64,000 nt of DNA from Bacteroidota bacterium. GTDB taxonomy: Bacteria > Bacteroidota > Ignavibacteria > Kryptoniales > JAKASW01. Within the stretch, counting starts at the first letter, position 1; each line of letters opens with the position of its first letter. Positions 58,324-64,000 of this stretch are shown one piece after another. Both the position numbers and the translations under genes were made by a program. The DNA lies in assembly GCA_021845665.1 (NCBI GenBank), contig JAJZVO010000018.1:1-64000 (forward strand), read 5' to 3'. The notes under the pieces were generated by a model. It had not been told where the DNA came from and searched no databases. It saw nothing but the letters and a program-made list of their open reading frames with translations.

Positions 58324-59037
58324 ATGCTCAAGCCGAGAAAAAGGATTACCAAGAAGGAACTCAAGCAGGATAAACTTGTCACGTGGTATTTCGCCGTGAC
58401 AGAGTATTTGCGGAACAATAGGAAGATAGTAAGCGGTGTGGTAACCGGCTTGGTAATAGCGGCAATCGTAGCGGTTGCTTATATGAACAATGTTCGTTCG
58501 AATAACAACAAGGCGGCCACGGAGCTGTCCCAGGTTCTGGACGCCTTCAACGGCGGCGCGTACCAGGTCGCCATAAACGGAGATCCCACTCACAACATTC
58601 GTGGGCTTAAGTATATTGTAGAAAACTACGGCGGCTCTGAGACCGGTGAGCAGGCAAAAGTGTATCTCGCCGATTGCTATTACTACCTCGGTGATTATGC
58701 GGATGCGATGAAGTATTTCAAAGACTACGACGGAAGCGACAGGTTCTTGCAAGCGAGCGCGTATGCAGGCGTGGCCGAAGTTTACGCGATACGGAAAGAT
58801 TATTCAAAGGCTGCCGAATACTACGAGCGTGCAGCTGCAAGCGACTCTAAGAATTTCATGGCGCCCCAATACCTTGTGGGTGCGGCAAGGAATTACATGA
58901 TGACCGGCCATAACGAAAAAGCTGTCGCCCTTCTCACCAGAGTCAAGAAGGATTTTCCAAATTCTCAATATGCCGACAATGTCGACTTTTTAATGGCGAA
59001 GGCGAAGCTTCTACTCTCTGAAAAACAGTCGGGGTAA
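58324..59037 (+). CDS. Membrane-anchored TPR protein
   Basis: A 237-residue protein with a basic N-terminus, one helix (about 38-56, VSGVVTGLVIAAIVAVAYMN), and about four TPR-like helical pairs (about 90-230; for example AKVYLADCYYYLGDYADAMK, YAGVAEVYAIRKDYSKAAEY, YERAAASDSKNFMAPQY). This layout is that of YfgM/TPR_21-type envelope proteins, which act as chaperone-like partners at the Sec machinery or in cell-envelope upkeep. The partner here is unknown. It is convergent with the hydrogenase operon. Confidence 0.88.
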   Translation: MLKPRKRITKKELKQDKLVTWYFAVTEYLRNNRKIVSGVVTGLVIAAIVAVAYMNNVRSNNNKAATELSQVLDAFNGGAYQVAINGDPTHNIRGLKYIVENYGGSETGEQAKVYLADCYYYLGDYADAMKYFKDYDGSDRFLQASAYAGVAEVYAIRKDYSKAAEYYERAAASDSKNFMAPQYLVGAARNYMMTGHNEKAVALLTRVKKDFPNSQYADNVDFLMAKAKLLLSEKQSG

Positions 59038-59259: not shown

Positions 59260-59790
59260 TCACTTCCAGACGTTTTGATGTGCGCGGACGGAATCGAGCT
59301 CTTCGATAATTTTCTCCTCGATTACATCTATTGCGTTTTCGACTTCCTCTGCCAATCCAATCTTGTGTGAGAAATCTTTTCCCACTATTCCGTATAGAAG
59401 CATGCAACGGGGAAGATGTCGGAGCGTTCTAGCCGTTTCGATTGCATCCAGTGAGCCGAAAGAGTGAGTCGAGAAAAACATGAGGTTTTCCGGCACACGC
59501 TCCTTGCCGGCGTCCATCCTGAATATGGTACCGGCAGGTGCGGACGATTGAACCGCGTCGACGATGATCAATGCGTCTGTGGAACACATTAACTCAAGGA
59601 GATGAGATTGATCGCCCGTAAGCTCGATCGTTCTCACGCCGGCCGGCTTGCTGATTTCAAGCCTACGCACGACCTTTAGTCCGACAGCATCGTCGCCACG
59701 AAACTCGTTCCCAATCCCGACTATTGTGACCAGGCTACCATCAACAATCGTGCTGGATGAATAGCCGAAATTTGCTGCATCCTTTTTCAT
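59260..59790 (-). CDS. [NiFe] hydrogenase maturation protease
   Basis: A 176-residue HyaD/HycI-type endopeptidase that trims the C-terminus of the large subunit after nickel insertion. The metal-binding motif GIGNEFRGDDAVG is near the N-terminus (about residues 25-37), DALIIVDAVQSS holds the second acidic ligand, and the conserved histidine lies in FFSTHSFGSLDA. I take ATG 59790, because the longer frame would begin at a TTG inside hydA; the gap to hydA is then 13 bases. Its target is presumably HydA just upstream. Confidence 0.92.
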   Translation of the reverse strand: MKKDAANFGYSSSTIVDGSLVTIVGIGNEFRGDDAVGLKVVRRLEISKPAGVRTIELTGDQSHLLELMCSTDALIIVDAVQSSAPAGTIFRMDAGKERVPENLMFFSTHSFGSLDAIETARTLRHLPRCMLLYGIVGKDFSHKIGLAEEVENAIDVIEEKIIEELDSVRAHQNVWK

Positions 59791-59803
59791 ATTTATCTTC
59801 AGC

Positions 59804-61135
59804 TCACCGTTCCTCGGATATGTCAAGTCTCAGGAAATGTGTCGCGCACGAAATGCACGGATCATAATTTCTCACTACTTGCTCACACCTAAGCGTCAGA
59901 TCCTGCTTCGACATCTTGATGTTTGAAGAGACAAAGTTTCTGAGATCGGACTCGATCATCCTCTGATTTTGTGCCGTGGGAGGAACAATCTTGGCGTCTT
60001 TGATTAATCCGTCTTCGCCGATAAGATATCTGTGATAGAGTATGCCTCTCGGGGCTTCGGTGCATCCGAATCCGAAGCCGGGCCTTACCTGGTAATCCAC
60101 GGCGGATTCCAGAGGAGGTTTGTAGGACTTGATTATCCTGATCGCTTCATCACAGGCATAGAGTGTCTCTATTGCTCGCACAACAATACTCTTGAAAGGA
60201 TTCAGAATAGGAGGGCGCATGTTTGCTTCCTCGGCCGCTTTCCGGGCGAGCGGAGACAATTTCTCGAAATTAAGATTGAGTCTTGCGAGCGGCCCCGTGA
60301 GGTAAGCCCCACGGTTATGTTGTGCGGGTGTTCTTTGGTCGGAGCTCCTCGGGTTCCTGAGAGTCGATTGGAGAGCGTTAGAATACGGGATATGGCTTTC
60401 ATGGAACACAAGCTCGTAGTCTCGTACGTCGATATTCAATCCTTTGTTGGAGACGAGCTTTCCCTCGTTGAAGGGATATTCGTCTGGATGGCTCAACGAG
60501 ACGAATTCGTAATCTGAAACGAAATCCGGGAAGTTGAGCTTGCTGGTCCAGAGTACGGTCTCGTAGGCCTCATCCCTTGCGCGCTTCAGGCTCTCGAGGA
60601 CTTCATCAAAGTCGCTCTTGTCGGGCAGTCTATAAAAACCGCCGACCTTGACGTTTATCGGATGAATTTCCCTGCCGGCAAGAACCGCCACCAGGTCATT
60701 TCCAGTCTTCTTGAGGCGAAGTCCCCGCTGCACGGCGTCGGGATGGTCGCCTGCCAGCTGAATTGCATCGTCGTATCCCAAGAAATCGGGAGCATGGAGC
60801 ATATAGATGTGGAGGGCATGGCTTTCTATCCACTCACCGCAGTAGAGAAGACGCCTCAGCTCCCGCAGCTGCCCTTCGACTTTTGCCCGGAAAAGACTCT
60901 CCATCGCGTGCACCGAGCTCATCTGGTAAGCGACCGGGCAGATGCCACAAATACGTGCTGTGATATCCGGAGCTTCAGAGAATTTTCTTCCACGCAGAAA
61001 TGCTTCAAAGAACCGGGGCGGCTCGAAAATTCTGAACCTGACATCGCTTACCTGACCGTCCTTTGTCTTCACGGTTAAGGCTCCTTCTCCCTCGACACGA
61101 GCGATGTAATCGACCTTGATCACTCTATTGTTCAT
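59804..61135 (-). CDS. hydA: [NiFe] hydrogenase large (alpha) subunit, group 3b type
   Basis: A 443-residue catalytic subunit. Cys63 and Cys66 (RICGICP) and Cys427 and Cys430 (DPCISCATH) are the four nickel ligands. His433 is followed by ten residues ([10 protein letters not shown]), which the maturation protease should remove. The gene order hydB-hydG-hydD-hydA and the sizes fit sulfhydrogenase-like group 3b enzymes, which use NAD(P)H to evolve hydrogen or the reverse. The start is ATG 61135 ([20 protein letters not shown]), overlapping the hydD stop by 11 bases; the longer frame adds residues that match nothing. Confidence 0.96.
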
Positions 61136-61913
61136 TCGATTCGCTCTCTTTTCTGAAAGCATCGGCGTAAGCATTGAATGTGCGGAACGCCAGCTTGATG
61201 TCGTGTTTAGTCTGGCCGAGCTCGTGGAGGCGTGCAGAGAGCGCGGGAGCGTTGGGCGATTCCATGGGACCGAAACAGCCGTAACAGCCGCGGTTAAAGG
61301 AGGGGCAGATCGCGCCGCAGCCGGATTGGGTCACCGGGCCGAGGCAAGGCTCGCCGCGTGCGACCATGATACAGTTGTTTCCCTTTATCTTGCATTCCAT
61401 GCAGACGCTGTATGTATGAATATTCGGCTTCCTCTTGTTGAGGAAGGCATTGATAATTTCCAGCAATTGAAACTTGTTTATGGGACAGCCGCGGAGCTCG
61501 AAATCGACATGTACGAACGAGCCGACGGGAAGCGACCTGTCGAGAGTCGAGATATATTCCGGCGATGCGTAGACGACATGGACGAAATTTCTGATATCTT
61601 TCCAATTCCGCAGCGCCTGTATTCCTCCTGCGGTGGCGCAGGCGCCGATTGTGATAAGCGCACCGCACGATTTTCTAATCGCGCGGATGTGTTCCACATC
61701 GTGCGGAGTCGTGATGCTCCCCTCAACGATCCCGATGTCATACGGTCCCCTAAGCATGCGCCTGCTCGCCTCCGGGAAGAAGGCGATATTTATCGCACCT
61801 GCTACGTCGAGAAGCTCTTCTTCCGCGTCCAGGAGAGAAAGCTGACAACCGTCGCACGATGCAAATTTAAAGACCGCAACTTTTGGCTTGCCGGCATTCC
61901 TTCTTTGCGGCAT
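61125..61913 (-). CDS. hydD: [NiFe] hydrogenase small (delta) subunit
   Basis: A 262-residue small subunit carrying iron-sulfur clusters. The proximal cluster site starts with Cys20 and Cys23 (FASCDGCQL), with [12 protein letters not shown] and [20 protein letters not shown] following. The C-terminal cysteines are in [31 protein letters not shown] and RGCYGCFGP. The start is ATG 61913 with AGAAGGAAAT just before it. The gene starts one base after the hydG stop and overlaps hydA, so the three are coupled. Confidence 0.95.
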
Positions 61914-61914
61914 A

Positions 61915-62781
61915 TTAGATTTCCTTCTTATCAAGCAAATTTTTGATTTGCGGGAGCCTGAAGACGGGACCGTCTTTACAGATGAATTTCGGTCCGAACT
62001 GGCAGTGCCCGCAGAGTCCGATACCGCACTTCATATTCCTTTCCATAGAGAGGTAAATCTGTGCCGCCGACAGTCCGCGACGTTCCAGCTCTTCGCATGT
62101 ATATTTCATCATCACTTCCGGGCCGCAGACCATCGCCAGCGTCGATGGTGTATCCATTTTCAAGTAGGAAAACAGACTGGTAACGACACCTATATGGCCC
62201 TTCCAGCTTGAGTCGCCCCTGTCCACTGTTATTATGACTTCGGTATTCGGAGCCTTGCTCCATTCTTCGAGCTCTACCCGGTAAAGAATGTCAAGAGGGC
62301 TGCGGGAACCGTACAGAATCATGATGCGTCCGAATTTCTCTCTCCTGCGCAGGAGAGTATAAATCACCGGTCGCAATGGAGCCAATCCGATACCTCCGGC
62401 AGCAATGCAAATATCCTTCCCGACTGCTTCTTCTATTGGCCACGAGGTACCGAATGGGCCGCGTAGCCCGATCGTGTCGCCACGCCGCAGCCGCGAAAGT
62501 GCCGACGTCACGGTGCCGACCCTGTGGATAGTGTGCGCAAGGATGTTCATCCTGAATGGATCTGAGCTGATCGATATTGCGGATTCTCCGGTTCCGAACG
62601 CGTAAACCATATTGAACTGTCCCGCGTTGAAGGCAAAGGTTCGACCGTCTCCCCGTGGTGGGTCGATAAGCAGCGTGTACGTGTCGTCGGTTTCCCAGAT
62701 CACACGGCGGACAATCGCGACTGAGGGGACCATGGATGGGGAGGATCCAATTCTCATTTCGATGTTGCTTGTGCCGGTCAT
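61915..62781 (-). CDS. hydG: Hydrogenase gamma subunit, FAD/NAD(P)-binding
   Basis: A 288-residue ferredoxin-reductase-like subunit that passes electrons between NAD(P)H and the hydrogenase. The FAD-binding barrel covers about residues 15-115 ([20 protein letters not shown]), and the NAD(P)-binding half has [20 protein letters not shown] and [20 protein letters not shown] [2Fe-2S] cluster site is Cys252, Cys257, Cys260, Cys268. Group 3b and dihydroorotate-dehydrogenase electron-transfer proteins share this design. GGAG precedes the ATG. Confidence 0.95.
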
Positions 62782-62817: not shown

Positions 62818-63306
62818 CTAATAGTTCTCACCTCTTTCACCTATAGCCGAACCATAGACATCGAGGAGTTGCAGGCGCGTTGCTTCAAGCCTGCGTTCCA
62901 GCACTTCGGAGAAACGCCGCAGCATTTCATAGCCGAAGTGACAATCGGTTTCACACTTGCTGACAAGGCAGGAGGCGTCGATCGCGAAGGCGTGGACTTG
63001 CTCGAGAGCGAACGCGTCGAAGTGCCATTTGTAGGGTGAAATCAGCCACGACCACCCGAGCACCTCGCCCGCTCCAACGGTCTGAATCCTTATTTGTCCG
63101 CGTTCGCCGCCGCGGACTTCCAGTACAACCCTCCCACTGCGAAGAAGATAGAAGGTCTTTGCGTCCTCACCTTCGTGGAACAGGTAAGTCCCTTCATTGA
63201 ATATCACATTTGAAGCGCATGAGGTCAGCGTTCTCAAAAGTTCCTCGTTCATATTGCTGAGGAACGGATGCTTGTGTAACGATTCCGTCAAGTCCTGTGG
63301 TTTCAT
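62818..63306 (-). CDS. CRP-like cyclic-nucleotide-fold protein in the hydrogenase operon
   Basis: A 162-residue protein that is a single cNMP-binding-type beta-roll (about 10-125) followed by a C-terminal helix, with no DNA-binding domain. The beta-roll is recognisable in [30 protein letters not shown] and [13 protein letters not shown]. In cAMP-binding proteins that last segment is GExFGExALL followed by an Arg in the next loop. Here Trp replaces the key Glu, and HFDAFALE stands where the Arg should be, so classic cAMP binding is unlikely. The start overlaps the hydB stop (ATGA). A regulatory or electron-sensing partner of the hydrogenase is the simplest reading; the role is unproven. Confidence 0.88.
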
Positions 63307-64000
63307 CGCGAACCTCCACTTTCTTGTTTGGTTGATCCTCTCTTGATCGCGCCGACTTCGGCGGTCAGGTCGATTCCTACGGGGCACCATGTTATGCATC
63401 GCCCGCACCCGACGCAGCCCGAGACTCCGAACTGCTCTACCCACGAGGATAACTTGTGAGTCAACCACTGTCTGTATCTAGACTTCCCCGATATACGGAA
63501 GTTCCCTCCGGACACTCTTGCGAAGTCCATCGTGAAACAGGAATCCCATGTCCTGGTGCGCCCTGCGATCCGGCCTGCAAGATCTGTCCTGTCTTCTACC
63601 GTTGAGCAGAAGCACGTCGGACAAACCATCGTGCAATTCCCGCAAGTCAGACATCGCTTTGCCACGTCGTCCCACTGAGGATGGTCTGTATTTTCTGCAA
63701 GGAGCTCCGGCAAGTCTGAAGTATCCATGATTCTTGTAACGGCGGCCGAGGCCTTCCTGATGGTTTCGTCCGCCGCACCAACGTCACTTTCATCGGCTCC
63801 TCCTGCGCCTATACCTTCCATCAACGACGTGCCTGCGTCGCTTCCCGCTTCAGCTACGAAATAATGACTTTCTCCATTTATGATTTCCGTAAGAACGATA
63901 TCGAACCCCGCCCCCGCCTTCGGACCGGTCCCCATTGATGTGCAGAAGCAAGTCTCTGCGGGTTGACTGCAATTGACTGCTATTATGAAATTGCGTCTTC
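63303..64000 (-). CDS. hydB: Hydrogenase beta subunit, [4Fe-4S] dicluster protein (partial, runs off the right edge)
   Basis: The visible 232 residues are the C-terminal part of the iron-sulfur subunit of a group 3b-type hydrogenase. The frame is open to the window end and already shows [20 protein letters not shown] near the edge, a conserved cysteine motif of this family, so the true start lies beyond 64000. Downstream are two [4Fe-4S] motifs: [16 protein letters not shown] and [16 protein letters not shown]. It passes electrons between the FAD subunit HydG and the HydD/HydA core. It is the first gene of the operon seen here. Confidence 0.95.

Follow-up and report, generated by a model that had tools for sequence, protein, structure and literature searches.

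A cyclic nucleotide-binding-fold protein with a conserved tryptophan cassette is encoded within a clade of group 3b hydrogenase operons

The 64,000-nucleotide stretch of contig JAJZVO010000018.1 analysed here (the window; assembly GCA_021845665.1, from a Bacteroidota bacterium) closes on an [NiFe] hydrogenase operon that includes a gene for a cyclic nucleotide-binding (CNB) fold protein of 162 amino acids (aa) (cNMP, protein P0001; 62818..63306, minus strand; characterised from the open reading frame (ORF) list, Pfam, AlphaFold2 and the ratio of nonsynonymous to synonymous change, dN/dS). What does such a protein do between the genes of a hydrogenase, and what does its pocket bind? The operon runs in the order HydB - CNB - HydG - HydD - HydA - HycI, and the presence of HydB, HydG, HydD and HydA together, with profile matches of the sulfhydrogenase type, marks it by sequence as a group 3b hydrogenase operon; in NCBIfam the HydABGD/ShyABCD sulfhydrogenase models match best or nearly so, with scores under their strict cut-offs. 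Our best reading, by analogy, is that the CNB protein would be a HoxI-like regulatory partner of the enzyme, recruited separately from HoxI and binding something other than cAMP. It starts from what is observed: the gene and its coupling, its place in the operon, its inheritance with HydA, the CNB fold, the lack of a DNA-binding domain and a conserved but replaced cassette.

The junction with hydB is a four-base overlap, ATGA (63303..63306, minus strand), in which the hydB stop TGA and the cNMP start ATG are combined, and a GGAGG resembling a ribosome-binding site (63313..63317, minus strand) stands 6 bases ahead of the start codon at 63306. Through this overlap the CNB protein is probably translated together with HydB (translational coupling). 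HydB is a 4Fe-4S protein (Fer4_22) of which the window holds the 3' part (63303..64000, minus strand); the full gene of 378 aa (L003:1304-2440) runs past the window end, and the contig, which extends to 72286, supplies it. HydG, the FAD/NAD(P)-binding and DHODB-type Fe-S subunit by Pfam and NCBIfam, lies on the other side (61915..62781, minus strand), its start at 62781 being separated from the cNMP stop by 36 base pairs (bp). The initial annotation had the gene joined by ATGA between hydB and hydG, which is correct on the hydB side but not on the hydG side. The gene is under strong purifying selection, with a dN/dS of 0.009-0.030 in four of six congener pairs, synonymous sites being saturated in the other two.

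Pfam finds a single family in the CNB protein, PF00027, at 49.3 bits against a curated cut-off of 27.5 (E 4.9e-13, residues 36-120), and a Pfam scan of all 162 aa finds no helix-turn-helix family, so that the protein does not qualify as a CRP/FNR transcription factor. Copies within operons span 151-189 aa. An AlphaFold2 model computed from 12 window-type sequences (pLDDT 84.3, pTM 0.77) consists of a CNB barrel, a last helix (residues 122-154) and a disordered tail. Among PDB entries it matches Gmet_1532 (3MDP) best, with Z 19.4 and a root-mean-square deviation of 1.9 A across 132 residues; domains that bind cAMP or cGMP and CRP/FNR proteins come next, at Z 16-17. The model and these matches agree with the Pfam result, which bears out the initial description of a cNMP fold lacking a DNA-binding domain. 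Because the long last helix in the model resembles the CRP dimer helix, the protein is likely to dimerise through it.

What sets the protein apart is its phosphate-binding cassette, encoded by the codons for residues 80-98 (63013..63069, minus strand, read from the sequence). The motif ending in HFDA that was first noted occurs there exactly, and it follows the pattern G-W-S-W-x3-P-x2-W, which replaces the Glu and Arg of the phosphate cassette. We aligned 60 members (49 operon copies and 11 lone copies) to the family profile. Position 85, where the cassette Glu would stand, is W in 54 of the 60 and A or V in the remainder, and is never Glu; position 94, the site of the Arg, is W in 56 and never Arg; S86 is found in 58, W87 in 59 and P91 in 59. 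Of 29 other CNB proteins, most of them chosen by family-profile score so that any bias favours the family, 22 have Glu at position 85 and 18 have Arg at position 94, both positions being assigned by sequence alignment. The canonical Glu and Arg thus appear to be gone from the family, with W85 and W94 in their places in the window protein; loss of the canonical GExFGExALL-Arg cassette was what was first proposed. The description of the pocket as degenerate does not hold, as the replacement residues are constant in 56-59 of the 60 members; by this alignment the pocket is conserved with a different cassette and has not decayed.

Classical cAMP binding by the family is unlikely because the Glu and Arg of the cassette are replaced. 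One could still imagine a sensor of cAMP or cGMP that is ordinary except for its pocket, given that the fold is close to cAMP-bound domains and that the overlap with HydB could place H2 metabolism under cAMP control. As position 85 is W, A or V throughout the 60 members and no member has Arg at 94, we consider such a sensor very improbable.

A related loss comes from a plasmid of Pandoraea vervacti (L152:4866-9892), on which a 3b operon is decaying: hydA is frameshifted, and the CNB protein has lost its cassette (EIVFAGEPMSPCSWLFDARA) but stays in frame elsewhere. Loss of the cassette in an operon with a broken hydA was counted in favour of a partnership with the hydrogenase. Similar cassettes with Tyr or other residues occur in 3MDP and in the first CNB domain of proteins of about 660 aa (L095:496-2472 and L113), which carry a pair of CNB domains, GWSAFR.P.RYM being found in the first, and whose C-terminal part resembles an acyltransferase by look.

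How regularly does the gene accompany group 3b hydrogenases? A search of relatives gave matches of at least 157 bits in 32 of 61 genomes, including 13/13 in the window's genus, and in all 30 of those 32 whose flanks were read HydB lies just upstream and HydG just downstream. Loci from a contig scan have the HydB-CNB-HydG order in 10 of 11 cases, the exception being L013. In 296 Bacteroidota genomes a HydA profile (A2) scored 22 genomes at 656-834 bits, 59 at 295-362 and 2 at 206-228 only, and strong matches to the CNB profile (166-256 bits) fall in exactly the 22 with HydA above 650 bits, at 1601-1803 bp from HydA. No other genome of the 296 has a strong copy, and one (G330) has a weak match at 70.8 bits. 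The co-occurrence has a hypergeometric p of 1e-33, in which shared ancestry is ignored; as the sequences behind profile A2 came from six cNMP+ operons (those with the gene), a high HydA score is not independent of the presence of cNMP, and the 22/22 is to be read beside 3/9 in Pseudomonadota (survey bias). Three of the 59 mid-scoring Bacteroidota operons were read; HydB, HydG, HydD and HydA are present and the CNB gene is absent. We also note that L073, L074 and L087 (Bacteroidota families f27 and f29) represent a separate 3b-like HydB-HydG-HydD-HydA clade without the CNB gene, covering 59/296 Bacteroidota genomes by HydA score, with three loci read.

The Pseudomonadota set (299 genomes) has HydA above 530 bits in 9, with the CNB gene in place in 3 of them; in lower-scoring operons with HydB, HydG, HydD and HydA it is absent from the six read (L130-L135). 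All 13 plasmid records with a 3b HydA also carry a CNB relative. Six of these loci were read fully (Burkholderia, two Rhodococcus, Pandoraea and two Streptomyces), and the HydB-CNB-HydG order recurs in Burkholderia, Rhodococcus, Pandoraea and one Streptomyces, the last of which has another copy at a distance of about 10 kb; in the remaining Streptomyces the distant copy is the only one. These Streptomyces loci, L143 and L144, thus both have a CNB gene about 10 kb from the 3b operon, and in L144 none stands between HydB and HydG. RefSeq names the gene by its domain only. On the evidence of these loci the gene is a regular component of a single large clade within the group 3b operons. The comparison of group 3b operons suggested at the outset therefore comes out differently by lineage: the gene accompanies 22/22 operons in Bacteroidota, where it is plainly not absent from most related operons, but only 3/9 in Pseudomonadota, and outside the clade it is absent from 9/9 read.

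The HydA tree (45 rows) places this clade in context. One fully supported clade comprises 29 cNMP+ and 7 cNMP- rows, and a second holds 9 other 3b-like rows, none of which has the CNB gene. The cNMP label requires a minimum of three changes on the tree, which fits one gain and two losses, where we infer both the root and the gain. One putative loss lies in a clade of six (support 100/96) and the other in Streptomyces with a detached gene.

These patterns bear on whether the protein could be a structural or assembly subunit, in which the CNB fold, its pocket filled or dead, would hold HydB to HydG or stabilise the complex without any ligand. The gene stands between both electron-transfer subunit genes in 40/40 operon loci read around the first matches, and the pocket Glu and Arg are replaced by bulky tryptophans, as a filled pocket might require. 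However, HydB, HydG, HydD and HydA are all present in the sister operons from which the gene was lost, and the lone copies described below keep a pocket cassette that a pure scaffold would not need; we regard this role as quite unlikely.

The lone copies are best understood from the address of the operon. In the window's genus it is fixed as LexA - Acs - GNAT_ACD - [operon] - TPR. In the window the operon continues from HydG to HydD, the hydrogenase small subunit (Oxidored_q6; 61125..61934), HydA, the [NiFe] large subunit of group 3b type (59804..61174), and a HycI-type maturation protease at the operon end (59260..59826), all on the minus strand and assigned by Pfam and NCBIfam, with the tree in addition for HydA. 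The TPR-like protein (58324..59037, plus strand) is the constant downstream neighbour in the genus and served as a marker in the synteny test. In one congener genome, G005, the ancestral address (L013:5861-9417) holds GNAT_ACD (a GNAT/acyl-CoA-synthetase-like gene) - CNB - TPR, with the CNB ORF and its cassette intact, and tblastn finds no trace of HydB, HydG, HydD, HydA or HycI at the site. The complete operon, with a CNB copy of its own, is on another contig, and the genome has a single HydA. Compared with its two nearest relatives, the lone copy shows differences at 0.105-0.119 of its nonsynonymous sites and 0.77-0.82 of its synonymous ones, so it has been kept by selection. Its contig has a low coverage of 1.2x and could derive from another species present in the bin; second species or not, some genome keeps the CNB gene at a site that lacks hydrogenase genes. 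In a further genome (G008:C4, L072:6034-9736) a second CNB gene, whose product shares about 70% identity with the window protein, is convergent to a cluster that encodes a [NiFe] large subunit of 3c-like type and a 1490-aa HdrA-like protein (domains judged by eye). Both of these lone copies of the genus sit in genomes that also have the operon.

Across the 11 lone copies (nine from Streptomyces/Embleya, two from Bacteroidota) each cassette residue is kept in at least 10, and the actinobacterial ones keep W85, S86, W87 and P91 together with R139, L140, R144 and L147 of the last helix. Some of the Streptomyces/Embleya copies adjoin GAF-domain proteins or kinases, response regulators, globin, universal stress or CBS proteins. 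We considered the residues lost in lone copies (H13, P14, F15, C30, N33, K117, Y126, E127 and R131) as a docking surface and rejected them; the losses follow lineage and not loneliness, because several are likewise missing from the operon-linked actinobacterial copies L046 and L151.

The existence of lone copies argues that the CNB protein may not be merely a cis-encoded structural subunit, and action in trans is suggested because the protein survives where adjoining hydrogenase genes were lost. In its strongest form this would make it a signalling protein that acts in trans within a redox or hypoxia network, expressed alongside the hydrogenase but directed at other or several partners and not a subunit at all. 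The intact gene at the emptied site in G005, the constraint on it, and the actinobacterial copies near GAF-domain kinases, response regulators and universal stress/CBS proteins are what this proposal would explain. It sits less well with the absence, among the 296 Bacteroidota genomes, of any with a strong copy but no 3b hydrogenase, with the gene being flanked on both sides by structural genes in almost every instance, and with the operon being present in both genomes of the genus that have lone copies; we judge it somewhat unlikely. A broader formulation, which we put forward tentatively, is that the tryptophan cassette defines a CNB subclass, which the other large family of soluble NAD(P)-linked hydrogenases recruited independently of HoxI as a redox or nucleotide sensor and which acts in trans as well.

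The explanation we prefer, at no better than even confidence, is that the CNB protein is an accessory protein of the 3b clade that is coupled to HydB, forms a dimer, docks on HydB/HydG and tunes the enzyme by a non-classical ligand. The dimer would form through the long last helix as in CRP and HoxI, and docking would take place on the HydB/HydG side, that is, the electron-transfer and NAD(P)H side. By analogy the docked protein would set the activity or activation of the hydrogenase. The ligand would be something other than classically bound cAMP, with NADPH or another nucleotide as the first candidate from the comparison with HoxI.

Several observations weigh against this accessory role. Six of the nine same-clade Pseudomonadota operons lack the CNB gene and have HydB directly followed by HydG, and lone copies keep the cassette without any hydrogenase gene alongside. 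Attempts to single out a docking subunit were equivocal: a partial mirror-tree analysis of 29 operons favoured HydG in 27/29 leave-one-out sets and only 253/500 random half-sets, and the preference was gone once Actinobacteria were dropped. Columns conserved in cNMP+ operons and released in six cNMP- operons number 7/95 in HydB, 11/76 in HydG, 9/104 in HydD and 7/141 in HydA; HydG against the rest gives p 0.036, uncorrected and with one clade on the minus side, which singles out no docking subunit. HoxI, on which the proposed mechanism is modelled, is not an ortholog, and the Cupriavidus soluble hydrogenase is active without HoxI and easier to produce (PMC3702609, PMC3189943, PMC12281615, PMC12809855). 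A candidate HydB-cNMP fusion of the Rosetta-stone kind in G282 was rejected, the long open frame being separate, overlapping HydB and cNMP genes.

We conclude that the CNB gene is a conserved, under-described accessory gene whose distribution, motif and orphaned copy are solid, the mechanism being proposed by analogy. Bacterial group 3b hydrogenases are widespread with little biochemistry, and we know of no such gene in the archaeal SHI that serves as the usual model. According to one paper, whether the bacterial enzymes depend on NADP had yet to be tried (PMC6688271). If the CNB protein does set the activity or direction of the enzyme, it would be a missing control element in NADPH/H2 exchange, bacterial 3b enzymes reconstituted without it may mislead, and CNB-fold regulators would have joined soluble hydrogenases twice. 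The motif also marks a CNB subclass that is unfit for annotation as cAMP sensor or HoxI.

How, then, does the family relate to known CNB proteins? To our knowledge HoxI is the sole characterised precedent, and Burgdorf et al. 2005 is said to be the source on it. HoxI and the present protein are both CNB-domain proteins encoded with soluble NAD(P)-linked hydrogenases, and the literature describes HoxI of the Cupriavidus necator NAD-hydrogenase as a homodimer on the diaphorase HoxFU and as the site of NADPH activation, and the Hydrogenophaga enzyme as lacking hoxI (PMC3702609, PMC3189943, PMC12281615, PMC12809855). Orthology was nevertheless rejected on identity, cassette and gene position. HoxI is 20% identical over 101 residues and scores 32.8 bits with the family profile against at least 125 for members; its cassette retains the Glu but has none of W85, S86, W87, P91 and W94; hoxI sits after hoxH and hoxW whereas the family gene sits between electron-transfer genes; and the HoxI partner is the group 3d HoxFUYH instead of a group 3b enzyme. 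In the tree HoxI sits on a branch so long that it cannot be placed. That HoxI scores below other CNB proteins is partly selection, because 28 of the 29 were picked by family-profile score (L070 from the Bacteroidota scan, the rest Pseudomonadota). The CRP/FNR regulator of the window's own genome, L002, which was found through P0001 and not the profile, scores 39.0 bits. This regulator (L002:1465-2175, G000:C2) lies in a second hydrogenase region, about 5 kb from a large-subunit match, with a NuoE/HoxE-like ORF between the two (G000:C2:22539-23879).

The gene has been met before in individual clusters. In the accessible sections of two accounts, the 3b cluster of Rhodococcus equi 103S has a CNB gene between the FAD/NAD(P) and 4Fe-4S genes (PMC13332983), and that of 'M. 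acidophilus' 29 a CNB-domain gene named HoxI (PMC12319191); those sections say nothing of motif, family, distribution or mechanism. The name HoxI appears to misfit the family studied here by sequence. Beyond the HoxI analogy, a search that covered few subscription journals returned no literature on the motif, distribution or function of this CNB family in 3b/[NiFe] clusters.

By structure the closest match is the stand-alone CNB protein Gmet_1532 (3MDP), with a partly similar cassette (GVSSLIKPYHYTSSARA) and only 24% identity. GlxR and Mycobacterium CRP (CRP/FNR) share the sensor fold (Z about 16), and the family differs from them in its absent DNA-binding domain and replaced Glu and Arg. The best NCBIfam match by score is the CNB domain of family 2B encapsulins (NF041163), at 28-43 bits against a curated cut-off of 400; these have a capsid domain, which the CNB family lacks, and they attach a CNB domain to an enzyme system (PMC8346489). 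Finally, the Trypanosoma PKA regulatory subunits (6FTF, 6HYI, 6HYQ and 6H4G) have the CNB fold and are, by their titles, independent of cAMP and take inosine or guanosine ligands; they differ in cassette and organism and offer an analogy only, one that would provide a precedent for a CNB domain leaving cAMP.
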